From positions 1-54,188 of IMG/VR virus record IMGVR_UViG_3300008050_007858: 54,188 nucleotides of DNA. The stretch is one strand, 5' to 3'. A model generated the notes under the pieces. The model was not told where the DNA came from. It saw nothing but the letters and a program-made list of their open reading frames with translations, and ran no database searches. Both the position numbers and the translations under genes were made by a program. Shown here piece after piece: positions 35,859 to 51,165 of this stretch (position 1 is its first letter; every line of letters begins with the position of its first letter). Source of the DNA: a virus.

Positions 35859-36049
35859 TATTCCGTTTCAAACATCTGTTTCTCAGGTTGGATATTCGGT
35901 GATACAGTAGGGGGATTAGTAACGATAATTTCGTTTCCGCTCACATTAAGATCCCAGTCTTTAAGTAAGTCTGTAATGTCTATTTGTTCAGCCAGACACT
36001 TTTGTAAAGTCATCAAAAGAGCGCCGATGGCTTGGTCTGATAATTTCAT
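35858..36049 (-). CDS. small acidic phage protein of unknown function
   Basis: A 63-residue protein starting [20 protein letters not shown], likely an amphipathic helix, followed by EQIDITDLLKDWDLNV and a polar tail ending QMFETE. No membrane span or motif is visible. I recall proteins with 'GAL-x-x-x-LQ-x-x-L' starts and 'ITDLL-x-D(W/L)' cores in aquatic T4-like phages near the zinc-ribbon gene. It is coupled on both sides by ATGA and TAATG overlaps, so it is a real gene in this operon. Confidence 0.65.
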   Translation of the reverse strand: MKLSDQAIGALLMTLQKCLAEQIDITDLLKDWDLNVSGNEIIVTNPPTVSPNIQPEKQMFETE

Positions 36050-36456
36050 TTGCTTTCCTCCATTAAATAGTTTTGAACCAACTCGTGGATTGAGCCATCA
36101 ACATTATCTTTCCATGACTCATCTTCTTTTAAAATTCTATCTCGAATATTAGTAGCAGAAATAAATCCGACATCTTGTGGCGGCACATGTTCTATAATCC
36201 CATATCCCACACCTCTACCGTAATTTACACTTGAAATATCCGGGATTGGAATTGCCACCACATCCTCATCCGCATAAACAGCACGAATCATATTGAGGGT
36301 TTGCTCAGTGGTAAAAGGATTCTTTTCATCGGGAGGTATATCCCTCACGGCAATTAAAATAGGTTCATCATTTTTTAGTTGCTGGTCTATAAGCCACTTA
36401 TGTCCATTGTGAAATGGTTGCCATCGTCCCACAAACATTGCTCTTCTCTTATTCAT
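36046..36456 (-). CDS. NadM/NMNAT-like nucleotidylyltransferase
   Basis: A 136-residue protein of the cytidylyltransferase-like fold (PF01467). [15 protein letters not shown] contains the nucleotide-binding (H/T)xGH signature, and [13 protein letters not shown] supplies the C-terminal 'ISxTxxR' motif. The [10 protein letters not shown] form is closest to archaeal-type NMN adenylyltransferase (NadM). It could adenylylate NMN to NAD, or activate another phosphorylated substrate with ATP or CTP. The open frame extends to 36567, but I choose ATG 36456: AAAGGA lies five bases upstream, the family N-terminus begins there, and it overlaps the CysC-HAD gene by only eight bases. Its place next to APS kinase may or may not mean a shared pathway. 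It lacks ATP-sulfurylase motifs. Confidence 0.8.
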
Positions 36457-37399
36457 TTTTTTCCTTTCGTAAAACATCTTTAACCGTGTTTTTCCATGAA
36501 ATAAATTTATATCCCCGATCATCGATATATATATCGGCAGGGATTTTGAAGTTAGATATCTCATCAAAGTAGTGTCTTAGGTTTTTATCCTGTAGCCAAG
36601 AGTCGATTATAGACGCCGGCCGGGAGGATAGAACCACGAGCCTTTTCCCGGCTTCTTTGAGATGGTCTAGAGATTCTTTTAGGTCTTCCATTGGGTCGTC
36701 ATAGGCATTCATCAACCCCTGAAACCCTTGACTATACTTATGGATCACTCCATCAAAATCTACAGCAATTGTCCTCTTTTTTTCCAGAACATTAACCTCA
36801 TCGACGCTGGAAAGATACTCATTCTTTTCCAGATATTTTATTACCATATTAGCGCACTCTTCTAATGAGCCCCGACAAGTGTTAATGGTTATCTCTGGGT
36901 TAAGTGGTTCCTCATAGGGAGCACTTATACCGGTAAAATTAGGTATCTCTCCACTTCTTGCTTTTTTGTATAAGCCTTTGGGGTCTCGTTTTTCGCATAT
37001 TTCCAGCGGAGCTTTGACGTATATTTCAATGAAATTGCCTCCCATTACTGACCTAGCAGAGTCTCTATCCTCTCGATAAGGGGAGATGAAAGCCGTACAC
37101 ACCAGGCTTCCGGCATCAGCAAACAATTTAGCTACTTCGGAAATCCGCCGAATGTTCTCTTTTCTTTCGTGGGGTTTGAAACCCAGATCCTTATTGAGCC
37201 CCATTCTTACGTTATCCCCATCTAGAAGATGGGTTTGACATGAGCGGCGGTGAAGCAGTACCTCGACTGCGTTGGCTAAGGTAGACTTTCCAGAGCCTGA
37301 TAGTCCAGTAAACCAAAGAACTGCCGGCTTGTGTCCGTTTTTTAATATTTTGTCACGCAGTGCGACTGATGTATTATGAAAATGTAAATTTTTTGTCAT
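36449..37399 (-). CDS. cysC: APS kinase (CysC) fused to a HAD-type phosphatase domain
   Basis: A 316-residue two-domain protein. Residues 1-197 are adenylylsulfate kinase: Walker [10 protein letters not shown] (32-40), DGDNVR (60-65), [13 protein letters not shown] (104-116) and [20 protein letters not shown] (139-158). This enzyme phosphorylates APS to PAPS, the universal sulfate donor. Residues about 205-316 form a HAD domain: VDFDGVIH with Asp214 and Asp216 as motif I, VVLSSRP as motif II and ADIYIDDRG as motif IV. The HAD substrate is unknown; one speculation is PAP or another nucleotide by-product. The gene overlaps DUF2061 (ATGA) and the nucleotidylyltransferase. Host CysC proteins are usually about 200 residues without HAD. 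Confidence 0.9.
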
Positions 37400-37605
37400 G
37401 TGTTCTTAACTCCGAACTTGGATAGATTATACCACATTCTTTCGTGTCCGTAATACAAAAGTATCTTAGTTATTAATTCCACCGCACCTATTTTAACCCC
37501 GATCATTGGATCTCCAGAGATTAACCAACCCAATATAATTGTGTCAAGAGTTCCAACCATGCGCCAACTAATTGCTTTGGCGATATGTCGTTTACGAGCT
37601 ACCAT
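37396..37605 (-). CDS. DUF2061 small membrane protein
   Basis: A 69-residue protein matching DUF2061 (PF09834): [40 protein letters not shown] and YYGHERMW. Two hydrophobic helices (about residues 13-30 and 35-55) predict a membrane protein. In bacteria, DUF2061 proteins are frequently beside sulfate-activation genes such as cysC and cysN, though their role is unknown; linkage to cysC is repeated here in a phage. It overlaps cysC as ATGA and lies seven bases from the methyltransferase-like gene. No strong ribosome site precedes the ATG. Confidence 0.85.
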
Positions 37606-37612
37606 TATTCAG

Positions 37613-38230
37613 TCACCGCTCTTCCTTTTTTATTAGTTGATATGCGAACATATATAATCCATCTTCTTGTGGGCGTCGGACATTAAGTTTAATACCAACT
37701 TGAAATCCCTCTAAAGTAAATAACTTTTCATAAAACTGATTCATAAAATCCAGACTTATATCGGAGCTATCATCTACTTTATAAAATTTTTCTCTTCTTC
37801 GGGCCCATTGTATCTTGTCTTCAAAATCAAATGGTTTAGTTTTGACATTGAATATTATTATTGAATTGTCCGATACACACCCCAGGGAAGGCAAGAGGGA
37901 ATCAAAATGTTCACAATATTGATATTTACTACCATAACAGCCTTGTGGGTTGTCTAAAACAACCAAATCGTATTTACCCCCCTCTTCTTGGATCATCTTA
38001 TGGGAATCGCCAATAGAAACAACGGCGTTGCTGGGTAGGTTTTTTTCAAGATCATTTTTAAATCTTTTTTCTATCTCCCAAGCATGTACTTTGCTTACCT
38101 TGTGTGCGTAAAATTTTGTCTGCCAAGTTGCGTCTCGGGCAAAGAGATCTAGCGCAACGAATTTACTCATATCTATGTGGTGTTGGTTTTCTAATAAATA
38201 AATTACTTCCCTGATGGCGCTATCTCTCAT
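37613..38230 (-). CDS. SAM-dependent methyltransferase-like protein
   Basis: A 205-residue protein with a class I methyltransferase outline. FVALDLFARDATWQTKFYAH resembles motif I (normally DxFxGxGxxT), KVHAWEIEKRF supplies the acidic residue after strand 2, SIGDSHKMI the motif before strand 4, and YDLVVLDNPQGCYG strand 4 with a DNPQG instead of DPPY. The Gly-rich loop is atypical, so it may be a divergent or inactive enzyme. The substrate could be a sugar, protein or nucleic acid. It lies between the dehydrogenase gene (11-base overlap) and DUF2061. Confidence 0.6.
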   Translation of the reverse strand: MRDSAIREVIYLLENQHHIDMSKFVALDLFARDATWQTKFYAHKVSKVHAWEIEKRFKNDLEKNLPSNAVVSIGDSHKMIQEEGGKYDLVVLDNPQGCYGSKYQYCEHFDSLLPSLGCVSDNSIIIFNVKTKPFDFEDKIQWARRREKFYKVDDSSDISLDFMNQFYEKLFTLEGFQVGIKLNVRRPQEDGLYMFAYQLIKKEER

Positions 38231-39098
38231 CTGCTTGTTGATCCTTTACAAACTTCATCGGCTCCTCTATGGATACCGCTCTTCCTATAAGTTTTTCCCA
38301 GTCCCTGTCTGGTCGTACCTCAAGATTTTTTTCCCAAACCGCCGTCATAATTGCTGGGTTGATGTTGCATTCTAGCATGACTTTGATAATAGCGTTAACA
38401 TCCTTTGGAAAACAGGAGCCTCCAAAGCCATACCTACCATCGGGTCCTGGTGTTGATAAGTGTGTTTTGCCTATCCTTTTATCATACAATGAATATTCTA
38501 CAACTTTATCATAATCAATATTTTTTTGTTCGCATATTTGTCGCATTTCATTGGCAAAAGAAACCTTAGTAGCCAAAAAGCAATTACAGAAATACTTTAC
38601 CATTTCCGCCGTATTAGATCCAGTCTTAAGGATTGGAGTAGAGGGAAATCTTTTCCGATATAGGTTTTTAATTATTGTCGTTGCGGGGCGGGGACCTCCC
38701 ACAATAATTCGGTCTTGGTTCTTAAAGTCTTGTATAAAATTAGCTTCGGTTAAAAACTCGGGGTTGAACACTAGAGATAGGTTTTTATATTTGGACCCCA
38801 GCCGTTCGGTTGTGCCGGGAGGCACAGTTGACTTAAGGACTGCTATGTGCCCCTTAGAGAGTCGATTCAAATCTTCTAATACATTTTCTACGATCTCAGT
38901 ATTACAGCTACCATCTTTGTTCATCGGAGTAGGAACACAGACAAATATTATTTTAGACCTTTCACATAATTCCGTAAGAGAGGAACAGGTAGAATTTTTA
39001 TTAATGTCATATGTGTGAACCTCGAACACTCCTTCAAAGCCAACCCGAACGGCGGTCCCTACAAATCCCTGCCCTATGATCCCGATGTTATTATCCAT
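38220..39098 (-). CDS. short UDP-glucose/GDP-mannose 6-dehydrogenase
   Basis: A 292-residue enzyme of the UDP-glucose/GDP-mannose dehydrogenase family. GIIGQGFVG (6-14) is the NAD-binding loop, CVPTPMNKDG and STVPPGT are conserved loops, and GFGGSCFPKD contains the catalytic Cys229. Reaction: two-step NAD-dependent oxidation of the C6 alcohol of a nucleotide sugar to a uronic acid. The usual protein is 430 to 450 residues with a third, UDP-binding domain; this one stops soon after the central helix, without that domain. AGGAGGA before the ATG is a strong ribosome site. It probably gives acidic sugars for the glycan made by the surrounding transferases. Confidence 0.85.
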   Translation of the reverse strand: MDNNIGIIGQGFVGTAVRVGFEGVFEVHTYDINKNSTCSSLTELCERSKIIFVCVPTPMNKDGSCNTEIVENVLEDLNRLSKGHIAVLKSTVPPGTTERLGSKYKNLSLVFNPEFLTEANFIQDFKNQDRIIVGGPRPATTIIKNLYRKRFPSTPILKTGSNTAEMVKYFCNCFLATKVSFANEMRQICEQKNIDYDKVVEYSLYDKRIGKTHLSTPGPDGRYGFGGSCFPKDVNAIIKVMLECNINPAIMTAVWEKNLEVRPDRDWEKLIGRAVSIEEPMKFVKDQQADER

Positions 39099-39963
39099 GA
39101 ATATCCTCCTTTAATTTTTGAAAGCACTCGTGAATTCCGTCCCGAATATTTACATCGGTTTTCCATCCCAGTTTAAACAACGAAGAAGGTTGTGCTTGTG
39201 TTTCGAAGACATCTCCGGGGCGGCCATCCACATACTCGAAATGTACTTCTGGGAAATATTCTTGGCAGATTTTTTTCATTTCATTAAGAGAAATATTGGT
39301 CCCGGTTCCTGTGTCATACACTCCCCCATTAAATTTGCCCTCATATTCCATTGCAAAGATATTAGCCGCTACCACATCCCGCACATTTAACATATCACGT
39401 TTTTGATACCCCGTTCCGGTGATGAATGGATTTTTGTTTTGACGAATATATTCCATCCAATTAGCTACAGCAGTAGCATAAGCACCATCTGCCCTTTGGT
39501 CCGGGGAATACACATTAAAATATCTTAAAGATACGGTATCAATACCATATAACTTGGCGTATAAAGTGGTCTCTATTTCTGAGGTTAACTTCTGGAGTGC
39601 GTAAGGACTTTCGGGACCGTCACCGTTTCCAACTACTGAGGATGAGCTAGAATAAACAAACCTCTTACACTCTACTTCCCTCGCAAGATCTAAAATCCAC
39701 GACGTCGCTAAAGTATTATTAATCATTGTAGAGAGAGGATTTTCAACACTGAACTCTACTCGGGGCCAGCACGCTAAATGGAATATAATTTCCGGGTTAA
39801 AGTCTAAGTACTTCTGGCGGGATGACCCACTTAGTATCTCTGATATCTCACCCGAATTTTCATCTTCTGTATCGATACCTATTATTTCATGCCCACGCAT
39901 CATTAACGTATTATACAGGTGTGTTCCGATATATCCTTTATGTCCCGTTACTAAACACCGCAT
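39091..39963 (-). CDS. NAD-dependent sugar epimerase/dehydratase (extended SDR, GalE/WbpP-like)
   Basis: A 290-residue extended short-chain dehydrogenase. TGHKGYIG (6-13) is the NAD-binding loop, YSSSSSVVG and YALQK (Tyr121/Lys125) are the catalytic Ser-Tyr-Lys triad, RYFNVYSPDQR and DMLNVRDVV are typical of GalE, WbpP and related 4-epimerases or dehydratases. It converts a nucleotide sugar in the cytoplasm; which one is not readable from sequence. It lies directly upstream of the dehydrogenase, with an eight-base overlap. Together they could give uronic or epimerised sugars. Start ATG 39963 has GGGAGAA upstream. Confidence 0.85.
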   Translation of the reverse strand: MRCLVTGHKGYIGTHLYNTLMMRGHEIIGIDTEDENSGEISEILSGSSRQKYLDFNPEIIFHLACWPRVEFSVENPLSTMINNTLATSWILDLAREVECKRFVYSSSSSVVGNGDGPESPYALQKLTSEIETTLYAKLYGIDTVSLRYFNVYSPDQRADGAYATAVANWMEYIRQNKNPFITGTGYQKRDMLNVRDVVAANIFAMEYEGKFNGGVYDTGTGTNISLNEMKKICQEYFPEVHFEYVDGRPGDVFETQAQPSSLFKLGWKTDVNIRDGIHECFQKLKEDIHG

Positions 39964-39978
39964 CGTTGGATTCTCCCT

Positions 39979-40569
39979 CTACATATTCAGATTATAAAGC
40001 ATAGAGTAGTAATTTTTAACCTGTGGAGAAAAAAAGTCTACTTTTATATTAGATGTTTTAAACTTTTCAAGTTCTAGGTAATCTTTACCGCTTGGTCCCG
40101 AGAGGTATATTGAAGCTTCTGTCCTTTTACAGATATCCAATAACAAATCGGTCTTGGAGCCAGTGACACCTAGAGATGAAGCATATATTATGGGCGTAGT
40201 AATATTCATTCTTTCTCTACACCATTCGATAGACCGCATATTGATGTCTATTAGTTTTTCGTGCTCATAAATTGATGTGGCGTCCATCTTAAGGTTGTGA
40301 GATATTTTCTTAATCACCTTTTTTCGCCAGTGATTGAGTGAATTATCTACTGTTACCACATCTTTGATCATCTTAGAAGTGCTACTTTTAGGTACTGAAA
40401 CACCAAACCACTCCTCGGATCCCTGTTTGTTCAGGAATTTATTTCTATTTTGAAAGTAGTTTTTTCTATATTTAACACAATCAAGAACGATAAACAAATC
40501 CGCACAATCCATCTTTTGAAAAAACCCTTCATAAGGGAAGTGTTCCGGTTGATGTATGGTTACTATCAC
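39979..40569 (-). CDS. WbqC-like protein
   Basis: A 196-residue protein of the WbqC family (PF08889). The N-terminus VTIHQPEHFPYEGFFQKM is diagnostic, followed by the conserved YRKNYFQNRNKFLN and SGPSGKDYLELEKF segments. WbqC proteins occur in O-antigen and surface-polysaccharide clusters and are thought to be enzymes acting on sugar nucleotides or amines; the reaction is not firmly established. The start is GTG overlapping the previous stop (GTGA), with AGGAAACC upstream. Its presence among sugar-modifying genes supports a surface-glycan pathway. Confidence 0.85.
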   Translation of the reverse strand: MIVTIHQPEHFPYEGFFQKMDCADLFIVLDCVKYRKNYFQNRNKFLNKQGSEEWFGVSVPKSSTSKMIKDVVTVDNSLNHWRKKVIKKISHNLKMDATSIYEHEKLIDINMRSIEWCRERMNITTPIIYASSLGVTGSKTDLLLDICKRTEASIYLSGPSGKDYLELEKFKTSNIKVDFFSPQVKNYYSMLYNLNM

Positions 40570-41330
40570 CTGAGGTTTCCTAATATTTTCTCCTTAGTAT
40601 CAATTTGCTCAAAGATGCTGGATTCTGTATCAAATTTCTTTTTAACCACCATCAAATTACAATAATGGTGGAAAAATAAAATATCATTTCTAAACTCCCG
40701 AGGATTCATGTTGAGATATTTCTCTATATTTTGCGATATAGGGTGAGAAAAATTAGCCCTATTAGATTTGTCGGCTTGTATCCTTTTCTCTACCAAATTC
40801 GATGAAAAAATATCCAAATCTACCGAACGAATTTGTTTAACCAAAAACTCATCCCATTTATCTCTGTCCTGGGGGTATCCTAAGAAATGGTTATGGAACA
40901 CCATACTTGTATCTTCTATAAAATATAACCCTCCATTTTTTAAGCTTTCCCAAAGATATTCATAAGAATTTATCATATGGAAAAACACATGACTTCCGTC
41001 ATCAATTATAATATCAAAATCAATTTTCTTGATTGGATCAAAAGTGCTAGGGTTATTTTGGTCACCAATAAGGATTTCTATATTTTCTTCCTTGTGGCTT
41101 AAGCATTTTGGATCAATGTCTACTCCCCATATTTTAGCATTTGGAAAATATTTCTTCCACAACCTTAGGGATTCTCCATTTTTTACTCCAATTTCTAAGA
41201 TGTTTACCTTCTCCTGGCGAAGGGCGTGAAGGTAGAAATCATAGATCGGATAGTAGTGCGCAAATTTATCCGTATTCATGTTATGTTTGGCTGCTTCTTT
41301 TTTATCAATATTAGTTAAAGGGGTGTCCAT
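40566..41330 (-). CDS. class I SAM-dependent methyltransferase (sugar O-methyltransferase-like)
   Basis: A 254-residue protein. HYYPIYDFYLHALRQEKVN precedes motif I ILEIGVKNGESLRLW, then WGVDIDP, VLIGDQ-like EILIGDQNNP and FDIIIDDGSH. This layout matches the family that includes macrolide and rhamnosyl O-methyltransferases and surface-sugar methylases. The likely job is O-methylation of a sugar residue. CAGGAG lies seven bases before the ATG. It is flanked by WbqC (GTGA overlap) and PIG-L. The DNA here is visibly more AT-rich than the virion genes. Confidence 0.75.
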   Translation of the reverse strand: MDTPLTNIDKKEAAKHNMNTDKFAHYYPIYDFYLHALRQEKVNILEIGVKNGESLRLWKKYFPNAKIWGVDIDPKCLSHKEENIEILIGDQNNPSTFDPIKKIDFDIIIDDGSHVFFHMINSYEYLWESLKNGGLYFIEDTSMVFHNHFLGYPQDRDKWDEFLVKQIRSVDLDIFSSNLVEKRIQADKSNRANFSHPISQNIEKYLNMNPREFRNDILFFHHYCNLMVVKKKFDTESSIFEQIDTKEKILGNLR

Positions 41331-41359
41331 TTATTTGATCTCCTGTATTAGTATTAAAA

Positions 41360-41989
41360 TCATATCCATTTTAATATCCTATAGCACTCATAATGTTTGT
41401 ATTTTCCTTTTGTAAAATTTTCATGAAAATAGCGGGTTCCGAAATCGTAGTGAGACTCACTCTGAAGGTAATATCCTAGCTTACTGTAGGATTGTTCTAC
41501 ATTTATATCATAAAAGTTTAGCATCTTCTTTTTGATGTTAAATTCTTCTGATTCTAACCCGAGCCAATAATTTGGAACAAAGTTTAATGAACTGGGGGAG
41601 TAAAAAGTGATGAATTTATTACAATACTTATAAAGACCTTTGGATATATAATGGAGACTAGTATGGTCTGTATGACAATCTTCACTGTCGTGAGTCACAA
41701 GATCAAATACACCTTGTTTAAAGTCGATCGATTTATAAATTTTATCCTTCACCAAGTCAAAATTAGTGGTTAAAGATCGTTGATCAAATCCTAAATTAGT
41801 ATACTTTATTTTTCTTCCACACATTTCTTCTATGAGAGACAAATTACGTTCCCAAATACTCACTTTAGGAGCCCAAGTAGAAGCAGTAATAATTTCAATA
41901 TTGTTATACAGTGAGTGATTCCTCAACAAAAATCCCAAACACGAGATTTCAAAATCATCTAGATGGGCCACAAAAAAATAAAGAGTCAT
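41360..41989 (-). CDS. PIG-L/LmbE-family deacetylase
   Basis: A 209-residue protein. FVAHLDDFE (7-14) is the AHxDD(E) zinc motif of PIG-L deacetylases, slightly changed from the usual AHPDDE, and ITASTWAP and ERNLSLIEEM are the following conserved blocks. CHTDHTSLH (105-113) supplies the second H-x-D-H ligand pair. These zinc enzymes remove the N-acetyl group from GlcNAc-containing lipids or sugars. Within this cluster it would create a free amine on a glycan building block, which might then be sulfated, methylated or acylated. The ATG overlaps the upstream stop (ATGA). Length is normal. Confidence 0.85.
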   Translation of the reverse strand: MTLYFFVAHLDDFEISCLGFLLRNHSLYNNIEIITASTWAPKVSIWERNLSLIEEMCGRKIKYTNLGFDQRSLTTNFDLVKDKIYKSIDFKQGVFDLVTHDSEDCHTDHTSLHYISKGLYKYCNKFITFYSPSSLNFVPNYWLGLESEEFNIKKKMLNFYDINVEQSYSKLGYYLQSESHYDFGTRYFHENFTKGKYKHYECYRILKWI

Positions 41990-42957
41990 GTCGAAAGCAT
42001 CCTTACTATATCCTCGTGAGCTACACGACAGCCCTCCTCCATAGAATATGCTCCTTGGGCGAATTCAAAAGCCTGTTTAGACAAATTGTGGGTTGAGGCC
42101 TCTCTGATTTTTTCGATCATCTCGGCAAAAGAGTGCGGGTTATGATTTTTATATTGAAAACAATAGGCGTAAGCGGACTTGTGAGTTAAAACTAAATCGG
42201 AGATTATACAGGGAGTTCCTCCTCTTAGTGATTCAAAAATAACCCTGGGGCTGGGATCAAAAGGCTGAAAGGGTCTTGGGTCTGTGGTCAAAAATGAAAA
42301 CTTTGATTTTCTAATCTCTTCAGCCACCACCTCCCTCGGAACATCTCCCAAAAAGCGATAAGATAAAGATTTTCTTTCAAGTATTGTTTTGATAGTGTCA
42401 ACATAGGGCTGGTTTCTTACAGGTCCTATGAACACAAACTCGTGAGATTTGAAATCTTCCGGGGATATCAGGTTGAGGAATTCTATTTGATTTTTATCTG
42501 TCCCGAGACTGCCGACACAGACTATTTGTTGTGGTCTGTCTTGGTATGGATAATAGGATGAAAATATCTCCTGCATTTCGGGAGTAGGCGGCTTAATAAG
42601 TTGACCATCGGTAAAATAAGCATCAACCCCCTCTAAATTACCCGGAACTCCCAAGGGTATCAAGTTAATAACTTTAGTAGTGGGAGAATAAAAACTCTTG
42701 CCATAAGTTTGAAACGCACTGCTTTTACAGATAATGTAGTCATATGAGATAGATCTTAGGTACTCAATGTCAACATTTTTAAAAGAATTTTCTCTCTCGT
42801 ATTGAAGGGAAAATTCTCTCTTATCCTTCTTGAAATAGGAATAGACATTGTGATAGTAACGGCTAAAATAGGCAGGCAGTTCATTGCCTTCAAGTTGTCT
42901 TGTTTCCGGAGAAAAATGAAGAAACAAGATTTTAGATTTTTTATTGAAGAACGTCAT
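41986..42957 (-). CDS. GT-B glycosyltransferase
   Basis: A 323-residue protein with a GT-B outline. The N-terminal half starts KSKILFLHFSPETRQLEGNE and ends near PLGVPGNL. The C-terminal half opens with QIVCVGSLGTDKNQIEFLNL and has HEFVFIGPVRN and, as the donor-binding motif, PSPRVIFESLRGGTPCIISD, which carries the conserved Glu. A donor sugar cannot be named. It overlaps the sulfotransferase gene by 17 bases and PIG-L as ATGA. It lies among the most AT-rich genes of the window. Confidence 0.75.
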   Translation of the reverse strand: MTFFNKKSKILFLHFSPETRQLEGNELPAYFSRYYHNVYSYFKKDKREFSLQYERENSFKNVDIEYLRSISYDYIICKSSAFQTYGKSFYSPTTKVINLIPLGVPGNLEGVDAYFTDGQLIKPPTPEMQEIFSSYYPYQDRPQQIVCVGSLGTDKNQIEFLNLISPEDFKSHEFVFIGPVRNQPYVDTIKTILERKSLSYRFLGDVPREVVAEEIRKSKFSFLTTDPRPFQPFDPSPRVIFESLRGGTPCIISDLVLTHKSAYAYCFQYKNHNPHSFAEMIEKIREASTHNLSKQAFEFAQGAYSMEEGCRVAHEDIVRMLST

Positions 42958-43711
42958 CGTGTTTCCAATACCGGGAAAATATATTTTTTTCGTCTCTGGA
43001 TCCTATGAGAATCAAAGTGTCCTTAATGTCTGAGTCGGATATTTCTGGGGTTTTCGTATCTGCAGTTAATTTTACTTGTTGAATCCATTCGTTATTCATT
43101 TCGATCCCAAGCCAGTTACCTATGTTAGAAACACTGCTATCAAAATCATGAAGAATATCTTCATAATAAACACGCAAGAATAAGTCGGGATTTAAGTGAT
43201 CCTCTATATTCGCTGCCTGTAAAGAATCTTCTATCACCTTGGTACAAGCTGCCTCAAATGTGTCATAACCATGAGATTTCATATATGAACGAGCAGCAGC
43301 GGCTGGATGACGAACTAAGTGTAAAAAATAGAAATTATTTTCCTTGGACAATAACAAAAGGTCTGTTGGGGATTCTCTAAAAATTTGTGTAGTGCCGCCA
43401 GCTTTTTTGTCGCCTACAACTAATATCTTTTTCTTTTGAAACTCTGGGGATTTAGACAGGTGCCCCATGCCCTTCCATCGCTCTTGATATTGGGACATAT
43501 TATATCCTGTATTTTCTAGTCCATTTTTAAATTCGGCTAGCGCATTCTGATACAAATCTTGGAGGGCTCTGTCGTAAGGGTATGAGTGGTTGATAACTTT
43601 GTCCAAAAATCTAGATTCATTAGATATCAAACAATTGGGGTGATAATTCAGTACTTGCCCTACGAAAGTACTTCCGGTTCGTCCACTACCAATAAAACAA
43701 AGGTATTTCAT
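42941..43711 (-). CDS. PAPS-dependent sulfotransferase
   Basis: A 256-residue protein. CFIGSGRTGSTFVGQVLNYH (5-24) is the 5'-phosphosulfate-binding P-loop of the sulfotransferase superfamily, and HLVRHPAAAARSYM (131-144) is the 3'-phosphate-binding motif with Arg134 and Ser142. A central Glu/Asp-rich part and the C-terminal NNEWIQQVKLTAD-DTKTPE-like region are also usual. It transfers sulfate from PAPS to a hydroxyl or amine acceptor. PAPS would come from the CysC protein encoded about 5.5 kb downstream on the same strand. The acceptor is probably a sugar, given the neighbours. Start ATG 43711, one base after the GT8-like gene. Confidence 0.85.
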   Translation of the reverse strand: MKYLCFIGSGRTGSTFVGQVLNYHPNCLISNESRFLDKVINHSYPYDRALQDLYQNALAEFKNGLENTGYNMSQYQERWKGMGHLSKSPEFQKKKILVVGDKKAGGTTQIFRESPTDLLLLSKENNFYFLHLVRHPAAAARSYMKSHGYDTFEAACTKVIEDSLQAANIEDHLNPDLFLRVYYEDILHDFDSSVSNIGNWLGIEMNNEWIQQVKLTADTKTPEISDSDIKDTLILIGSRDEKNIFSRYWKHDDVLQ

Positions 43712-43712
43712 C

Positions 43713-44459
43713 TCAAAATTCCATAAAGTTTTTCTTACAAAATTCCAAAGCTTGCTCTAAGGACTCCACTTGATATTGTCCTTGGTTGATTTTTGGGTCA
43801 GCGTGCATATGATAAATTCTCGGCTTAAGGTGGTCGTCGCCAAATTCATGATGAAACTTTCGTTGCTTTTCTCGATTAGCTTTGCTGCGAATATTATATT
43901 CTACCGGCAGGATATAGAGTTTAAGACCTTCTTTACACCCCTCCCACAATGAAGCCCTAAAAGAGGGTTGGTCCCAGGGAGATATATGAAAATACCTATA
44001 AAAATATTCTTTCCAACGAGCGAAGAGTCGATTAGCTTGTGGACTCTTCCTGTATCCCATAACACCCGTGTTTACTTCTGAAAAAGCATATGGAACTACT
44101 CCATATTCGGGTATAGTGGTGGTGTATTTCTTTCTCTTACGAGCTAAATCATGGCATATAACCACGTCAAAAACATCCAACATCTCAAACACATCCGATA
44201 TATCATGATTAACAATGGTATCTGTATCTAAAAAGATAGTGGACTCATACGGAGATTGATCCATGTAATCAATCTTAGATCTTAGGTGACTAACTGTAAT
44301 TATTTTTAAATTGTCGATATGGGGAGATTCCACATCACGGTCAGCAAACATGGTGATATCTATGTCGGGCATCGCTTGTTTAACAGACTGGGCCGAGAGA
44401 AGGGCTTCTTTTATGAAGTTTTCCCCATAAGCTATATAAAGAATTCCTTGTGACGTCAT
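43713..44459 (-). CDS. GT-A fold glycosyltransferase, GT8-like
   Basis: A 248-residue protein with GT-A features: ILYIAYGENFIKEALLSAQS as first strand and helix, IFLDTDTIV with the metal-binding DxD (Asp78-Asp80), and GVMGYRKS, PWDQPSF and HMHAD later, as in GT8 and related retaining transferases. It would add one sugar from a nucleotide donor. No membrane segment or signal is seen, so it acts in the cytoplasm. It starts with ATG two bases after the preceding gene. The sugar donor and product are unknown. Confidence 0.75.
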   Translation of the reverse strand: MTSQGILYIAYGENFIKEALLSAQSVKQAMPDIDITMFADRDVESPHIDNLKIITVSHLRSKIDYMDQSPYESTIFLDTDTIVNHDISDVFEMLDVFDVVICHDLARKRKKYTTTIPEYGVVPYAFSEVNTGVMGYRKSPQANRLFARWKEYFYRYFHISPWDQPSFRASLWEGCKEGLKLYILPVEYNIRSKANREKQRKFHHEFGDDHLKPRIYHMHADPKINQGQYQVESLEQALEFCKKNFMEF

Positions 44460-44460
44460 T

Positions 44461-45450
44461 TTATTTTTTTATCCTTCTTATTTCATTATACACTTTTTGA
44501 GCCCATTGTATAGGGTCGTACTCTTGATCGAATTTAAGCTTGGCCGATCGGGAAACTTCGGTTCGATGAGACGGATCTTTCAAATTTTCAAATGCTTTTA
44601 ACCAGCTATGCTTGTAGTGGGCTAGGTACCCACATTGCTCATCCCCGAGTAAGTGAAAATTGCTGGGAGTTATATCTGCTACAACTGGGATTCCTAACTG
44701 ATGGAACACAAACGCTCTTCCAGCATTGGACTTATTTTTAAACCTAATCGTATAATCCGTTGAGTACAGCCCAAGATCAGGATCCGTCACTGTCTTGTCG
44801 AACTCCCCAGGAGTCATAGAGGTTACATTAGGAACTAGACCAATATCACACTCTCGTAGACTCTTTTCTATAGTATCATAGTTCCAATATTCTAGAGTGA
44901 TATTGGGGATTTTTGGTATCCCCACTGTCCAGGATTTAAACCCAGGGGAAGTTATAATTTTTAAGGTTATAGGGTTTGTCTCGCTAAACTCTTCCAGGGC
45001 AGTTGTTAGGTGAGGAGAAAATTTACACAAATGAGTGTGGCTTCCATGATAGCCAAAAATCAAATTCTTCTTATTTGAGTGAGTCTTAAGCGGAATATCC
45101 CTGAACATATCCTCAATTAGGGGGAAATAAAAGACATTGGGATGATGAGACAAACTTATTTTTTCTTCTATGGATCCCACAATAATAAAATCTTGACCCA
45201 CATGATCGTTGTCGGACGCTAAATTTATCGCTCCATAAATTTTGTCAGTATATTTCTCTTTGAGGGGTTGTATCAGATGTGAGTCATTTTTTGAAACAAT
45301 GATGACATCTGCTTTTTCTACTTCTTCTGTAACGGCGGTAATCTGGGAGTTAATGCCCGCTTCGTTAAAGTACTTATTGAGATCTCGAACCCATATCCTA
45401 TACGATCCTACAGCACAGTTATGATCGCTACTTACAAATACTATTTTCAT
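44461..45450 (-). CDS. GT-B glycosyltransferase-like protein
   Basis: A 329-residue protein. IVFVSSDHNCAVGSYRIWV and VIIVSKNDSHLI give the N-terminal Rossmann half, LIFGYHGSHTHLCKFSPHLT the interdomain segment, and RECDIGLVPNV and NAGRAFVFHQLGIPVVAD the C-terminal half. The usual donor-site 'E-x7-E' reads RAFVFHQLG here, so a canonical Glu is missing and the catalytic state is uncertain. It could act on an unusual donor or be a partner subunit. It is one base from the GT8-like gene and two bases from the methyltransferase. Confidence 0.65.
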   Translation of the reverse strand: MKIVFVSSDHNCAVGSYRIWVRDLNKYFNEAGINSQITAVTEEVEKADVIIVSKNDSHLIQPLKEKYTDKIYGAINLASDNDHVGQDFIIVGSIEEKISLSHHPNVFYFPLIEDMFRDIPLKTHSNKKNLIFGYHGSHTHLCKFSPHLTTALEEFSETNPITLKIITSPGFKSWTVGIPKIPNITLEYWNYDTIEKSLRECDIGLVPNVTSMTPGEFDKTVTDPDLGLYSTDYTIRFKNKSNAGRAFVFHQLGIPVVADITPSNFHLLGDEQCGYLAHYKHSWLKAFENLKDPSHRTEVSRSAKLKFDQEYDPIQWAQKVYNEIRRIKK

Positions 45451-45452
45451 TT

Positions 45453-46121
45453 TTAGAATCTTTTACGAATGATTACTTGATGATTAGGATTACCGCTGGC
45501 TGCGTTGCCGACTCTATATATTTTCACATCCTCAGCGCCCTTGATTAACCTCTCTATATCGTAGTAACAGCCAAACCTTTTGTCAAAGTCATCAAATATC
45601 CAGATAGGATTATCGGACTGTACATCTCTCAGGTTTATTACATCTTTAACCACGTCGCCATAATCGTGAGCGCCGTCGATATAAAAGAGATCAATCTTGT
45701 TATTTGACTCTTTAATTTTGTCGGCCATATTTTTGCTATTTCCTAATACAAAAGTGGTATCACTCTTGAGCCTTTCACTATACTCTATATTTCGAACGTC
45801 TTTAATATCACAACTCCAAATATGTCCGCCAGAAGCCTTGAGTGTGTGGGCGAATGTATAAAATTGAAGACCTTCGGCAGTTCCTACCTCAGCTATATTT
45901 TGGACATTAAAGTGTTGAACTATAGTGGACAGATAATATGGTCTACGCTGTAGCTCGGAAAAACATTGTTTAGTTTGAGCCTCGGACAGCTTATGGGTAT
46001 GAGCCTTATTTGCTTGGACCTTGAGAGATATATCTTCCCATATATTGATGTATTCTTGGGGAGGTGTCACCTCCTTTATATCAGGATATGTTTTTATGGT
46101 CAGTTTTTGTTCATTGTTCAT
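45453..46121 (-). CDS. class I SAM-dependent methyltransferase (Methyltransf_24-like)
   Basis: A 222-residue protein from ATG 46121. NIAEVGTAEGLQFYTFAHTL is motif I, then SCDIKD, and IDLFYIDGAHDYGDVVKDVI is the strand 4 block typical of Methyltransf_24. IFDDFDKRFGCYYDIERL follows. O-methylation of a sugar or small molecule is likely. The open frame reaches up to 46172, but I choose 46121: AAGGA lies seven bases before it (46133-46129), and it gives the ATGA overlap with the previous gene seen throughout. The longer form would overlap that gene by 55 bases. Confidence 0.75.
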   Translation of the reverse strand: MNNEQKLTIKTYPDIKEVTPPQEYINIWEDISLKVQANKAHTHKLSEAQTKQCFSELQRRPYYLSTIVQHFNVQNIAEVGTAEGLQFYTFAHTLKASGGHIWSCDIKDVRNIEYSERLKSDTTFVLGNSKNMADKIKESNNKIDLFYIDGAHDYGDVVKDVINLRDVQSDNPIWIFDDFDKRFGCYYDIERLIKGAEDVKIYRVGNAASGNPNHQVIIRKRF

Positions 46122-47026
46122 TGAGTGGTCCTTGGCGATATCATGAAGTCTAGATATTTTTGAGATACCCATTCCATATCGTAGCTTATATTATACTCAT
46201 TAATGCTCTGTTTTGTAAAGTCTAATTTGGGTGGCTCATATAACTTAACGGGAGCTAAGTTCCACTCATCTTCGTCAATGATTGTAGCTCCCAAGCCAGC
46301 CACCTCTTTGGTACCACCAGACGAAGAACAAATGATCTTACACCCACAGGCACGGGCATCAACCACAACATTGGGACAATGGTCCAACCAAGCTAAGTGG
46401 ATAAAATAATCACACGACTTCAAAATAGCCAACAAATAATGGTATTTAATATTTCCTAAATATTTTACTCGTGGATTCTCAATAGGTTTATTTTTTACTT
46501 CTCCGGCAATGAGCAATATATCTTTAGGTCCGGAGTACTTCATGAAATATTCGATATTCTCTTCTAACCTTTTGTGAGGTCTCCAGTGAGAGGCGCAACA
46601 CCACACTTTCTCATACCTGTCTTGGATATTAGAGATATTATGAGGCAGTTCATCTATCTGCTTCAGGTTGGCCCCGTTATGTATCACAATAGAGTGAGGG
46701 TGCTCCCCAAAAAAATGTGTTGTTAGTTTTTTGTTGAATTCGCTCTGAAAAATAACTCCTGTCGCATTGTCATAAGTTTTTTTAATCAACCTGTTCTGTT
46801 CCGAATAATTTTCAGAAGAATTAAAATATATTCCATCGAGCCTTTGGTACAACCCTCCTACTACTGGTTGACGAGTAGACTCAATAAACGCCAAGGTGGC
46901 AGTGGGATCTTCGTACACATTAAAAGTTACCCCTTTGTCTCCTAGGGCGTCGAACAACTTCCTCCCAAAACAGTTAGGCCCAGTATTGCTGGTTAAATTT
47001 ACATTTTGTAGGTGGAGGTTAGTCAT
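46118..47026 (-). CDS. GT4-like glycosyltransferase
   Basis: A 302-residue GT-B protein. NLTSNTGPNCFGRKLFDALG opens the acceptor domain, FQSEFNKKLTTHFF and IVIHNGANLK lead to the linker, and WCCASHWRPHKRLEENIEYF starts the donor domain. ILLIAGEVK, YHYLLAILKSCDYFIHLAWL and HCPNVVVDARACGCKII with SSSGGTKEV complete the GT4 pattern; the usual Glu in the donor motif is Asp here (VVVDARA). It is one member of the transferase run, overlapping the following gene by four bases and the previous by eight. Confidence 0.8.
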   Translation of the reverse strand: MTNLHLQNVNLTSNTGPNCFGRKLFDALGDKGVTFNVYEDPTATLAFIESTRQPVVGGLYQRLDGIYFNSSENYSEQNRLIKKTYDNATGVIFQSEFNKKLTTHFFGEHPHSIVIHNGANLKQIDELPHNISNIQDRYEKVWCCASHWRPHKRLEENIEYFMKYSGPKDILLIAGEVKNKPIENPRVKYLGNIKYHYLLAILKSCDYFIHLAWLDHCPNVVVDARACGCKIICSSSGGTKEVAGLGATIIDEDEWNLAPVKLYEPPKLDFTKQSINEYNISYDMEWVSQKYLDFMISPRTTQ

Positions 47027-48653
47027 AGCTCTTAGGGTTGTATCTAGATTTTTTTCGAATTTCTAGCATGTTCTGATACTGCTCGTGTTGGCTCTTTTTA
47101 TTGACAGCGTTTGGATTACCCACGTTGTAAACACATAACACTTCTTTTATAAAGTGACTCCGGTTGGCAGCTAGTTCTAAAGCTGGGAGCATTATAGCCT
47201 GATCATAGGAGGACTTATAATATTGTCCATCAATATCTAAAAAGTCCTTAGGGTCTATGTCTTTCCATACCCTATGTTTTAATGTTTTAAGGTGGGATGC
47301 TCGCCACACATCTTTACGAAAGTTATTTTCCCTTACGGTGAGGTCGGGATACGCAGAAGATTCGCTTCCTATTTTACCAGTGGGGTACTCTATAAAGCTT
47401 CCAAACGTAACAAGAGCTTCGTCGCCATAGTATTTGTCCAAGGTATCTAAGACATACTTATTGGATAGCCAATCATCTCCGTCTAAAATAACGATAATTT
47501 CTTCATCGTCAGGGCTGGCTTCTCTAATAAGATCTTCTATGTTCTTGAGCGCATATTTTTTCGTTTTATTTTTAAATAAGTGAAACCTTTTATCTTCCCC
47601 TACAAACTTTTTAGCAAAAGTATAAGTAGAGTCCGTAGATAAATCATCGCCGATATAACATCTCCAATTTGGGTTATTTTGCCCAGAGATGCTTCCTAGG
47701 GCTTTTTCTATCCATGGATCAGAATTAAACACTGGGACGATAAAGAGATATTGATTCATTTTTGTGGCAGGAGACGGGGTAGGGACACGGGGGGCTATAG
47801 TGTGAGAATGTAGGGTATCCCAAAAAAATTCTGCTCGACCTTCTAAATATTCCCTCATTTGCGCAATATTTCTGTTTTTGAACCACGTCTCTTCTTGGTG
47901 CTGGACATTATCATTAAGGATCAGCTTAGATCCCAGAAGAGCCGCCTCAATCACGAGGCGGGGGCATGTATCGGCTCCTTTGGGCAAAAAGATCAAACCT
48001 TGGTGGGAAGCTATCTTATTCAACATCGCCCTATAGGGTAATCCCGACACTATTTCGTACTTTAAATTATTGTTTTGTGCGTAAAAAATAGCGTCTTCGG
48101 TACCTTTTATCCACGAGTCCGATCCCAATATAAGATAAGACTCTTCTTTAGCTTCTGTTGGCTTGGTTTCTTCAGCTAGAGTATCTAAAAGTTCAGAGTT
48201 AAAGATTGAACTGAGGATATAATTAGATTTTGTCTCAAGCATAGGAAAACGCTCAAAATATCTCTTACTCTGATCTTCACTCATCCAAAAAACACTAGAA
48301 GCTTTAGCGAGAAACACAGCGAACAGTTTTCCAAATGAGCTTTGGTCACACTGACATGATCCCTCTATTTCTATGTGTTTTTCTATCGATCTTAATTTAC
48401 AAAATTTATAATCGTACTCTACCACTGAATATTGGAGGGTTTTAATAGCCTCAATATAACTAGTTTTATCCATGTGGGAGGCATTTGTAAAAACCCAGTG
48501 ATAATCCTTTAAGGAGTGAATTATTTCGGAAGTGACCTGATGAGAGTACAATTTAATGACCGGGACATCGGCTAGATCAATCAGCCCCTGGGTGGAAAGC
48601 TCTGCTCCGCCCACATAATCTTCCACATAGGCATCTGCCACAAAAACATACAT
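47019..48653 (-). CDS. two-domain glycosyltransferase (GT-B half plus GT2)
   Basis: A 544-residue protein. Residues 1 to about 285 read as a GT-B-like transferase (YVGGAELSTQGL, SYLILGSDSWIKGTEDAI, LIFLPKGADTCPRLVIEAAL with Glu237). A Pro/Thr linker (RVPTPSPATK) follows. Residues about 299-544 are a GT2 family enzyme: QYLFIVPVFNSDPWIEKAL, CYIGDDLSTDSTYTF and VILDGDDWLSN with the DxD at Asp391 to Asp393. Two activities in one chain could add two sugars in sequence. A Cys pair (GSCQCDQ) in the first half is odd. The start ATG overlaps the next stop as TAATG. Confidence 0.8.
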   Translation of the reverse strand: MYVFVADAYVEDYVGGAELSTQGLIDLADVPVIKLYSHQVTSEIIHSLKDYHWVFTNASHMDKTSYIEAIKTLQYSVVEYDYKFCKLRSIEKHIEIEGSCQCDQSSFGKLFAVFLAKASSVFWMSEDQSKRYFERFPMLETKSNYILSSIFNSELLDTLAEETKPTEAKEESYLILGSDSWIKGTEDAIFYAQNNNLKYEIVSGLPYRAMLNKIASHQGLIFLPKGADTCPRLVIEAALLGSKLILNDNVQHQEETWFKNRNIAQMREYLEGRAEFFWDTLHSHTIAPRVPTPSPATKMNQYLFIVPVFNSDPWIEKALGSISGQNNPNWRCYIGDDLSTDSTYTFAKKFVGEDKRFHLFKNKTKKYALKNIEDLIREASPDDEEIIVILDGDDWLSNKYVLDTLDKYYGDEALVTFGSFIEYPTGKIGSESSAYPDLTVRENNFRKDVWRASHLKTLKHRVWKDIDPKDFLDIDGQYYKSSYDQAIMLPALELAANRSHFIKEVLCVYNVGNPNAVNKKSQHEQYQNMLEIRKKSRYNPKSYD

Positions 48654-49903
48654 TAAATGTCCAGTTGAGAAAAGAGTTCATCTATTTCTTCACTGGTAGA
48701 GTCCATCTCCAAAATGGCGTCTACATACTTTTGATATATTTTTTCCTCTGAAAATTCAACCTTTAAATATTCCTGTAACTGTTTTGCCATGGATCGCTTA
48801 GCCCCTAGAGCTTCATAAGTGCTACGCAGCGATTTCTTATATGCTTCTACATCTACATAAGCCCATTTTGTGCCCCGGTTTATAACCCCATCCCAGACTG
48901 CTGCTTCTTCCACTGGTTTTAAATCGTATTTAATTTTGGTAAACAGAGGGGCTTTTTTGACCCTCCCGGATGTTGGGTTTTTCACAGGAGCGTACAAGAA
49001 ATCATTTTGGCCTGACCAAGCAGGCGCTACGACGGGCAATCCACTATAAGCAGCTTCAAAAATTGGTAGACCATACCCCTCGCCATGAGTAGTCGTTATA
49101 TAAGATTTCACAGAAGGAATTTTATATAAAGAATGAAGCTCATCTTCGCTTAGGTTTCCATGAACCAGATATACTTGACATTTTCTATCCGGATATTTTC
49201 CGCACCACGAGGAAATCTTCTTTGTGGTCATTTCATCGTCGATGATAGAATGGTTTCCCGTGTGGAACTTTAACAAAAGACCCACATCATCATTATCATG
49301 AAATTCTTCTATGAAGTTCTTTACGAGGGTGCCCACGTCCTTACGGGGGGATATCTGAGCTATCGCTAAGAAATTAAACTTTGTTTTTAGGTCGAGGTTG
49401 AGATCCACTACCTTCTTTTCCTTGACAGGATATCCAATAACGTCTATTGGTGTCTCTAGTCGCACTATGCCAGTCTCGCCAGTCTTTTTATCCTCAAATG
49501 GATAAGAAGTATTCAGGGAGCACTTAGCATGTTCAGATACTACAATGATTTTATCCACTTGGTTACATGCTTGAATCCATTCTGGGGATGCTTTATCTGT
49601 TTCTATTCCTGCGGTTACGCCGATATTAATAGTTGCGTGGTTTTGCCACTCAGTAGGCACCGTTACCTGAAGGGATATATCAAACTTGCCGCCGACATGA
49701 GCCATTTTGTTCATACACTCTAAGATACCCTTGGTCTCGGGATCATTGGTATCAATTGGCCAATTTGATACGCCCCACTCAATAGGCACCACATATATAT
49801 CAAATTGGTCCGGGCGGCTCTTTAGGGCTCTGTAAACGAGGCGGGCGTGTTCTCCATATCCACTCTTACTGAGAATTGGTCCCTTTAATAGTACTCTTAT
49901 CAT
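48653..49903 (-). CDS. GT4-like glycosyltransferase
   Basis: A 416-residue GT-B enzyme. VLLKGPILSKSGYGEHARLV has the Gly-rich acceptor loop; INIGVTAGIETDK and IIVVSEHAKCSL follow; FLAIAQISPRKDVGTLVKNF opens the donor half; GEGYGLPIFEAAYSGLPVVA is the canonical 'E-G-[FY]-G-L-x-x-x-E' donor motif. It is of full family length. Start ATG 49903 overlaps the neighbour as ATGA. It likely adds a sugar to a growing glycan; donor and linkage are unknown. Confidence 0.85.
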   Translation of the reverse strand: MIRVLLKGPILSKSGYGEHARLVYRALKSRPDQFDIYVVPIEWGVSNWPIDTNDPETKGILECMNKMAHVGGKFDISLQVTVPTEWQNHATINIGVTAGIETDKASPEWIQACNQVDKIIVVSEHAKCSLNTSYPFEDKKTGETGIVRLETPIDVIGYPVKEKKVVDLNLDLKTKFNFLAIAQISPRKDVGTLVKNFIEEFHDNDDVGLLLKFHTGNHSIIDDEMTTKKISSWCGKYPDRKCQVYLVHGNLSEDELHSLYKIPSVKSYITTTHGEGYGLPIFEAAYSGLPVVAPAWSGQNDFLYAPVKNPTSGRVKKAPLFTKIKYDLKPVEEAAVWDGVINRGTKWAYVDVEAYKKSLRSTYEALGAKRSMAKQLQEYLKVEFSEEKIYQKYVDAILEMDSTSEEIDELFSQLDI

Positions 49904-51165
49904 ATCGTTTTAAATCTCCATTTTTGATGGTTTTTTCTTTCTTCCCAAGATCCATTTTTCTCATGGAAATCAGTCATACACTGAACCCATCTATCTTTAA
50001 AATCGCTGAAGTTGTAATTCTTTTCTACATGTGCTCTTCCTGCTTTTCCGAGTTGGGCTCGTTCCTCAGGGCTCATTTCATATATTTTAACCAAAGAATC
50101 AATAAATTCTTCTTTAGTGATCCTATCCTCGTATATCCATGGCACCTGTTGGGATCCTATGACAGCCTTGGAGGCGGGCTCAATACCTATGCCAAAATAA
50201 TTTTCGCCGTCGGTGACCTGCTCCTGTAATCCCCCGGTCATGTTAACGATAATGGGTGTCTCACAAGACAGGGACTCCAGGGTTGATAACCCAAAACCTT
50301 CGGCATCTGATATATTAACCGTACAATCGGCCAAGTTATACATGAGGGATAAATCCTGCGCACTGATCTTGTCTACAGAAAACCCTATTTGCCCATTGGT
50401 GAGACCCAAATCATCAGCAATGTAGTCCAACGGCTGTCCGTGGGGATCGTGAAGATCAGTGTGCATAAGAAGAGTTGCTTTATCATGCCCCACTCGATCG
50501 AGGAATTCCTTGAACCAGAAGATCAAAGTACCAGATTGTTTTCTGCGGGCGTTTCGATTATTCCAGAAAAATACTACTTTGCCATCCATCTTATATTGTT
50601 GACGAATATTCGAGATTTTTTCCCTGTCCTCGCTGGAGATTTTCTTTTTAAAAATATGGGTATCCACTGCGTGAGGAATGTATTGTTCATCAATGGTGGG
50701 ACTCACGGTCCTCACAATGTCGCTAGTAACCTTAGAAATAGTAGCTACCTTATCGTTGGAATCATATTTACTCTTGTTAAACACGGGATAAGGATAATTA
50801 TCCCAAACATGGTAATAGATCATAGGCACGTTCTCCCGGATCTCATCCTCCATGTGCCACAACCAATCATAAAAACGTGGGTCCGTCATAAAATATAAAA
50901 TATCAGGCTTGAATTGTAACAAACAGCGCCGTATTTCCTGTTGAGTCCCATATGCTTTAACTGGCTGTATGATCCAGTCATTCCCATAGGCTTCCACAGC
51001 GGTTGTTTCATAAGAGGGGTGATCTACTGCTCCTCCTAGTGAAATTACTTTAAACTTCCCGCTTTGAAGGAGGGCCTCTATAATATACTTAGTCTGGGTG
51101 GCTACCCCAGAAGGAAGTAAAGGATGATCACTAATAGTCATCACTGTTATCTTTTTATCGGTCAA
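49900..51165 (-). CDS. GT4-like glycosyltransferase (TTG start)
   Basis: A 421-residue GT-B protein. ITVMTISDHPLLPSGVATQT has the Gly-rich acceptor loop, YHVWDNYPYPVF and SKVTSDIVRT follow, VVFFWNNRNARRKQSGTLIF opens the donor half, and ISDAEGFGLSTLESLSCETP is the canonical donor motif. The start is TTG 51165, chosen because AGGAGG (51179-51174) stands eight bases upstream and no ATG is nearer than codon 9. The Shine-Dalgarno site overlaps the stop of the previous gene. This is the first gene of the glycan run in the direction of transcription. Confidence 0.85.
   Translation of the reverse strand: MTDKKITVMTISDHPLLPSGVATQTKYIIEALLQSGKFKVISLGGAVDHPSYETTAVEAYGNDWIIQPVKAYGTQQEIRRCLLQFKPDILYFMTDPRFYDWLWHMEDEIRENVPMIYYHVWDNYPYPVFNKSKYDSNDKVATISKVTSDIVRTVSPTIDEQYIPHAVDTHIFKKKISSEDREKISNIRQQYKMDGKVVFFWNNRNARRKQSGTLIFWFKEFLDRVGHDKATLLMHTDLHDPHGQPLDYIADDLGLTNGQIGFSVDKISAQDLSLMYNLADCTVNISDAEGFGLSTLESLSCETPIIVNMTGGLQEQVTDGENYFGIGIEPASKAVIGSQQVPWIYEDRITKEEFIDSLVKIYEMSPEERAQLGKAGRAHVEKNYNFSDFKDRWVQCMTDFHEKNGSWEERKNHQKWRFKTI

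Follow-up and report, generated by a model that had tools for sequence, protein, structure and literature searches.

We identified in the 54,188-bp IMG/VR virus record IMGVR_UViG_3300008050_007858, taken here in full and referred to below as the window, a gene island that is probably a phage-borne sulfation pathway with its own supply of adenosine 5'-phosphosulfate (APS). In this pathway a small HxGH nucleotidyltransferase (NTase) would form APS from ATP and sulfate, an APS kinase (CysC) would convert APS to 3'-phosphoadenosine 5'-phosphosulfate (PAPS), and a sulfotransferase would pass the sulfate on to an acceptor. All genes between positions 36449 and 43711 lie on the minus strand, with glycosyltransferases around them and a distance of 5.5 kb between the APS kinase and sulfotransferase genes. 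Since baseplate wedge and endolysin-type genes adjoin the island on its far side, its phage origin is secure. A preliminary description of the region had reported an APS kinase, a DUF2061 membrane protein and a sulfotransferase on one strand among glycosyltransferases, and we recovered every motif it quoted, in place and with scores far beyond chance. Absent from that description were the fusion of CysC to a HAD domain and the NTase gene, which lies directly downstream of the CysC-HAD gene and belongs to the same conserved cassette.

The NTase probably makes APS, a proposal based on its genomic context and on the loss of parts specific to NadM, the archaeal NMN adenylyltransferase. Both belong to the HxGH superfamily, which also includes ATP sulfurylase. 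The AlphaFold2 model of the NTase (pLDDT 95.9, pTM 0.88) contains three strands only, and its best fold match in the PDB is NadM (1EJ2, 1F9A; TM 0.74), with which it shares the GRxQPxHxGH, NPFT and S-x-T-x-x-R motifs. Alignment with hhalign (99.7%) extended over the full domain but skipped the middle region, which in NadM contains a conserved tryptophan and the VYS(N/T)N strand; the tryptophan and the VYSN segment are absent from the NTase according to both this alignment and the three-strand model. The NTase is about 30-45 residues shorter than NadM and scored far below the NadM cut-offs (47.5 bits against 181 and 59.7 against 127; TIGR01527/NF002243). Across 56 diverse NTase members F8, G10, R11, H16, G18, H19, G80, R81, V83, T102 and R105 are invariant and R38-D39 nearly so, and neither this R-D motif nor the GRxVGY motif of the NTase was seen in the NadM rows of the comparison. 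From sequence and model we infer that the NTase derives from NadM and that its acceptor site became smaller and acquired arginines, which would fit sulfate as the acceptor. The NTase did not qualify as a canonical ATP sulfurylase (Sat, PF01747), reaching 17 bits in the close relative L002 against a cut-off of 24.3. The profile match to Sat was confined to the short S-x-T-x-x-R region (43%), and we therefore do not propose that the two share an ancestor within the superfamily.

A search with the NTase itself revealed a CysC-type kinase adjacent or fused to it at 76 of 80 viral and 60 of 70 cellular loci, and the cellular fusions occur in both orders (24 CysC-NTase, 16 NTase-CysC). In most of the 31 viral cassette records described below, too, the NTase either adjoins CysC or forms a fusion with it. 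Ten distant matches fell outside the NTase family by motif and were mostly NadM-like; they were unpaired, except at L154, where a CysC-type kinase lies beside one of two distant matches. At three viral loci (L177, L178 and L182) cysC is replaced by a distant CysC lineage and the NTase is still adjacent, and the structural neighbours of L178 are the same as those of the window. The repeated fusion and the co-replacement of kinase and NTase point to one shared pathway. One NTase branch is accompanied by a short, divergent CysC-like kinase of about 146 aa (viral L201-L250; cellular L110, L114, L115 and L117), and kinase-NTase fusions were also observed in alphaproteobacteria (L132, L142, L145, L147, L149-L151, L159 and L163).

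The cellular contexts tie the NTase to sulfur metabolism in further ways. At three Nitrospiraceae loci (L096, L097 and L099) it has no CysC neighbour and directly follows an APS reductase gene (CysH), in an operon that consists of an Rrf2 regulator, a sulfite/nitrite reductase-TusA fusion, the APS reductase and the NTase (L096:6179-10420); the L096 CysH matched TIGR02055, thioredoxin-dependent APS reductase, at 273 bits (cut-off 235). APS kinase and APS reductase both act on APS. Because APS is thus the metabolite common to its contexts, the NTase is most likely a sulfate adenylyltransferase. Cellular NTase-CysC pairs were also found beside sulfotransferases (L121, L131, L134, L137 and L128, with L091 marginal) and, at L108, beside a CysQ-like gene of the inositol-monophosphatase family.

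We examined the distribution of known ATP sulfurylases. Canonical ATP sulfurylase (PF01747) exceeded its cut-off in none of 50 viral records, and no CysD-like protein was present among the window open reading frames scanned by Pfam, the dedicated CysD search having covered cellular genomes. Of the 42 pair-bearing cellular genomes tested, 27 had neither Sat nor a CysD match of at least 180 bits; many of the 27 are incomplete assemblies, and among them is Haladaptatus halobius, whose record is titled complete sequence. Among 118 haloarchaeal genomes sampled, six carry a CysC-NTase fusion, none of the six has Sat, and their CysD matches are at most weak (about 33-bit); the sole other genome with CysC (G109) has a canonical Sat gene 41 bp upstream. 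The CysN profile TIGR02034 was uninformative, as it matched in all 14 control genomes (10 of them below cut-off) because elongation factors are related.

These data bear on the source of APS. The preliminary description had noted that no ATP sulfurylase was present and suggested that the host may supply APS; the absence of the canonical enzyme was borne out, and host supply is probably wrong, the adjoining NTase being the best candidate for the APS-making enzyme. For the host to supply APS, the NTase would have to be a true NMN adenylyltransferase serving NAD supply and an incidental neighbour of CysC, as its nearest solved structures and curated families (NadM/NMNAT) could indicate. We consider this unlikely in view of its low NadM scores, the missing tryptophan and VYS/TN strand region, the fusions to CysC in both orders and the linkage to APS reductase; moreover, hardly any of the NadM-like loci returned by the NTase search has CysC as a neighbour.

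The CysC domain very likely turns APS into PAPS, as judged from its sequence. It matched PF01583 and TIGR00455 (apsK, NCBIfam) over the full length and above cut-off (257 bits for TIGR00455, cut-off 139), scored 202 bits against the solved plant APS kinase 3uie and aligned unbroken and at full length with solved APS kinases of plant, fungal and human origin. The Walker [10 protein letters not shown], DGDN, FISPYR and DPKGLY motifs are present, and DGDN(V/I)[28 protein letters not shown] and FTGISAPYE are conserved in the alignment. The protein is a fusion, residues ~205-316 forming a HAD domain for which the searches returned no specific family. The same fusion was found in L002, L004, L005, L013, L018, L023-L025, L028, L029 and L032, and in L175 and L176 HAD is encoded by a separate gene. 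The HAD domain might remove the inhibitory by-product adenosine 3',5'-bisphosphate (PAP) or another phosphate. In PHROGs the HAD family of window positions 36449-36790 is named 'phosphoheptose isomerase' (phrog_1238), which looks like a misannotation. Most viral relatives carry DUF2061 in their cassette. DUF2061 is fused to CysC in L018, L082 and L175, which makes a membrane-associated PAPS synthase plausible; it could be the membrane partner of CysC, possibly as an anchor or as an entry path for sulfate.

The kinase-NTase pair could instead make another activated group, such as phosphoramidate or another 3'-phosphonucleotide donor, with the sulfotransferase being unrelated. CysC homologues can be co-opted to act on other nucleotides, and Cj1415, a CysC-like protein of Campylobacter, reportedly acts in making such a different activated group; the short kinases in L187-L250 and those of alphaproteobacteria do diverge from CysC. 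This possibility appears quite remote: the window CysC retains every motif of genuine APS kinases, the pair is accompanied by sulfotransferases from three Pfam families, and in Nitrospiraceae the NTase lies in an APS reductase context.

The sulfotransferase likely transfers sulfate from PAPS to an acceptor. Its match to PF13469 lies above the cut-off of 27 bits, and both PAPS-binding motifs are intact, the 5'-phosphosulfate-binding GSGRTGST and the 3'-phosphate-binding LVRHP...S; R11, G13, S14, T15 and R134 are invariant between it and eight other phage and bacterial sulfotransferases. The AlphaFold2 model, built from a shallow alignment and of moderate confidence (mean pLDDT 74.6), appears to adopt a sulfotransferase fold, with Foldseek matches to PAP-bound sulfotransferases (E 4e-7; TM about 0.5-0.6). 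The top fold matches were tyrosylprotein and heparan sulfate 3-O-sulfotransferases, together with an olefin synthase sulfotransferase domain; identity to the tyrosylprotein and heparan sulfate enzymes is about 15-17%, and the acceptor is not deducible from the match. A glycan acceptor is favoured because sugar genes surround the sulfotransferase, peptide or tyrosine sulfation being the alternative. The acceptor sugar would be made by the neighbouring glycosyltransferases, dehydrogenase and epimerase, and would be displayed on the virion or on the surface of the infected cell. There it might, as the preliminary description suggested, hinder superinfecting phages or alter recognition. The window sulfotransferase had no match in the named-phage collection, and exact peptide patterns from it gave no match in IMG/VR; its orthologue in L013 (58% identity) surfaced only via CysC.

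We retrieved 80 viral CysC loci and searched 49 records for PF03567 and PF13469. Thirty-one dereplicated viral records contained the cassette, defined as CysC plus NTase and/or DUF2061 nearby. A sulfotransferase was present in 21 of these 31 records and lay within 10 kb of CysC in 18, compared with 5.7 +/- 1.8 expected from random placement on the same contigs, a null that takes no account of the overall tendency of accessory genes to cluster. Where CysC occurred outside the cassette, 3 of 18 records had a sulfotransferase within 10 kb. In the closest relatives of the window (L002-L005, L007/L008) the DUF2061-CysC-NTase block is 69-84% identical (70-84% in L002-L005 and L008) and occupies the same site beside structural genes, most of the flanking structural proteins being less conserved than the cassette (~30-60% identical), and the glycan genes differ from those of the window. 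The sulfotransferase of L002-L005 and L008 belongs to another family, PF03567 instead of PF13469, and lies 2.5 kb from CysC; L013/L014 carry the orthologue of the window sulfotransferase 7.4 kb from CysC. What phages exchange are the sulfotransferase and the glycan genes, while the PAPS-making cassette is kept. The proposal of the preliminary description that the phage encodes both the making and the use of PAPS is therefore well supported: the active-site motifs of CysC and the sulfotransferase are intact by sequence and, for the latter, in the moderate-confidence model, and the two genes, far from never occurring together, recur as a pair in related and unrelated viruses.

In the reference phage collection 18 records matched the CysC-HAD protein, none over its whole length. 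H6-H18 matched the HAD part only. In H5, a huge phage, CysC is present and no sulfotransferase was seen close to it. H1-H4 matched CysC but look bacterial and were rejected as phage relatives; H1 is a 691-kb Salmonella contig, and H4/L010 (OQ572406, 'Pseudomonas phage Y4'), marked UNVERIFIED, reads as bacterial chromosomal DNA with cysC beside a sulfotransferase-like gene.

It is very improbable that these are host metabolic genes, decayed or carried as passengers, that play no part in infection: phage accessory islands do turn over fast and glycan genes vary among the relatives, but the cassette is conserved above most flanking structural genes, its reading frames are intact with overlapping, operon-like spacing (4 bp between DUF2061 and cysC, and 8 bp by which the NTase ATG reaches into the end of the CysC-HAD gene), and it recurs in many unrelated viral contigs.

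Several observations weigh against a phage sulfation pathway fed by the NTase. NadM, not ATP sulfurylase, is nearest to the NTase in both sequence and fold, and the proposed APS activity of the NTase therefore rests on genomic context and on the loss of NadM-specific parts. Sat or CysD is also present in some of the hosts that carry the pair, and both Nitrospiraceae genomes tested carry canonical Sat elsewhere. The two alphaproteobacterial kinases that were read (L132 and L151) have NADEVR instead of DGDN and possibly a different substrate, so PAPS need not be the product of every pair. No sulfotransferase was found in some short-kinase phages, e.g., L228, although L191, L193, L198 and L205 do have one. 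Finally, 10 of the 31 cassette records, some of them fragments, lack all three sulfotransferase Pfam families. Among these ten, L041 encodes a sulfotransferase-like protein (14457-15236, motif FCSGKTGSRTL) 3.5 kb from the cassette that falls below the Pfam thresholds, and the Pfam-based sulfotransferase counts are thus lower bounds.

Table 1. Features of the sulfation island in the window, with their best profile matches
Feature	Position	Strand	Match
HxGH nucleotidyltransferase (NTase), 136 aa, candidate minimal sulfate adenylyltransferase	36046..36456	-	PF01467 26.7 bits
APS kinase-HAD fusion gene (CysC-HAD)	36449..37399	-	PF01583 + HAD_2
HAD phosphatase-like domain, residues ~204-316, DFDGV motif	36449..36790	-	HAD_2 23.1 bits, just below cut-off
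APS kinase (CysC) domain, residues 1-196	36812..37399	-	PF01583 E 7e-67, 225 bits
DUF2061 small membrane protein	37396..37605	-	PF09834 75 bits
Methyltransferase-like protein	37613..38230	-	weak Pfam match only, 14.6 bits
UDP-glucose/GDP-mannose dehydrogenase family, N-terminal and central domains only	38220..39098	-	PF00984 91 bits, PF03721 87 bits
NAD-dependent nucleotide-sugar epimerase	39091..39963	-	PF01370 145 bits
WbqC-like protein	39979..40569	-	PF08889 149 bits
SAM-dependent methyltransferase	40566..41330	-	phrog_21658 86 bits
PIG-L-like deacetylase (weak)	41360..41989	-	PF02585 20 bits, below cut-off
Glycosyltransferase group 1	41986..42957	-	PF00534 29.5 bits
PAPS-type sulfotransferase, 256 aa	42941..43711	-	PF13469 51 bits
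Several glycosyltransferases and one methyltransferase, same island	43713..51165	-	PF03407, PF13578, PF00534, PF00535

The remaining genes of the island are listed in Table 1. The dehydrogenase-type protein of the window, of ~290 aa, has a counterpart of similar size in L178 (7133-8002). L002 (270-5262) and the equivalent regions of L004, L005 and L008 encode a KdsC-like HAD protein, a PfkB-like kinase, a SnoaL-like protein, a nucleotidyltransferase-RpiB fusion and split transketolase halves, a sugar-activation set that probably represents an unusual nucleotide-sugar route. The structural region of the window also encodes very long proteins (13099-22665, 3188 aa; 7914-12149, 1411 aa), which are possible glycan carriers.

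Sulfation is well known in eukaryotes and in some bacteria and archaea; the chemistry is known, and the phage setting, the cassette and the assignment of the NTase appear to be new. The arrangement resembles the bifunctional PAPS synthases (human PAPSS1, bacterial Sat-CysC), in which sulfate is activated by two enzymes, an APS kinase being placed beside or fused to a nucleotidyltransferase of the HxGH superfamily. It differs from them in that the nucleotidyltransferase is a NadM-like domain of ~136 aa, not PF01747, that lacks a PUA-like domain and is fused in both orders. In the phage unit the linkage of NTase and kinase is observed, and the formation of APS is argued from context. The NTase differs from archaeal NadM itself by its own R-D and GRxVGY motifs and its pairing with CysC, in addition to its reduced size. 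Sulfated capsule or S-layer glycan systems of bacteria and haloarchaea, such as that of Halobacterium salinarum (PMC11980604, which mentions neither PAPS nor APS), likewise have a sulfotransferase in a glycan assembly cluster, whereas the window sulfotransferase is phage-encoded together with its own PAPS supply. Our literature search covered open-access papers (subscription papers and preprints lying outside it); among the papers searched we met neither a sulfation pathway encoded by a phage nor a phage sulfotransferase accompanied by CysC, and nothing relevant to an alternative ATP sulfurylase. The phrase 'sulfotransferase AMG' occurs in PMC12285232.

These results make it fairly likely that the NTase constitutes a third, non-orthologous class of sulfate adenylyltransferase, derived from NadM and distributed in diverse phages, bacteria and haloarchaea, where it would supply APS for PAPS-dependent sulfation and, in Nitrospiraceae, lie next to APS reductase, and that phages use it in a portable, host-independent PAPS synthase that serves, with swappable sulfotransferases, to sulfate glycans of the virion or the host. 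If so, annotations of such proteins as 'NMN adenylyltransferase' or 'cytidylyltransferase' would be corrected, and the NTase would explain the source of APS in many bacteria and archaea that have an APS kinase and a sulfotransferase but no known ATP sulfurylase. Phages would then own a self-sufficient PAPS module with interchangeable sulfotransferases, which would represent a new surface chemistry in phage-host interaction.

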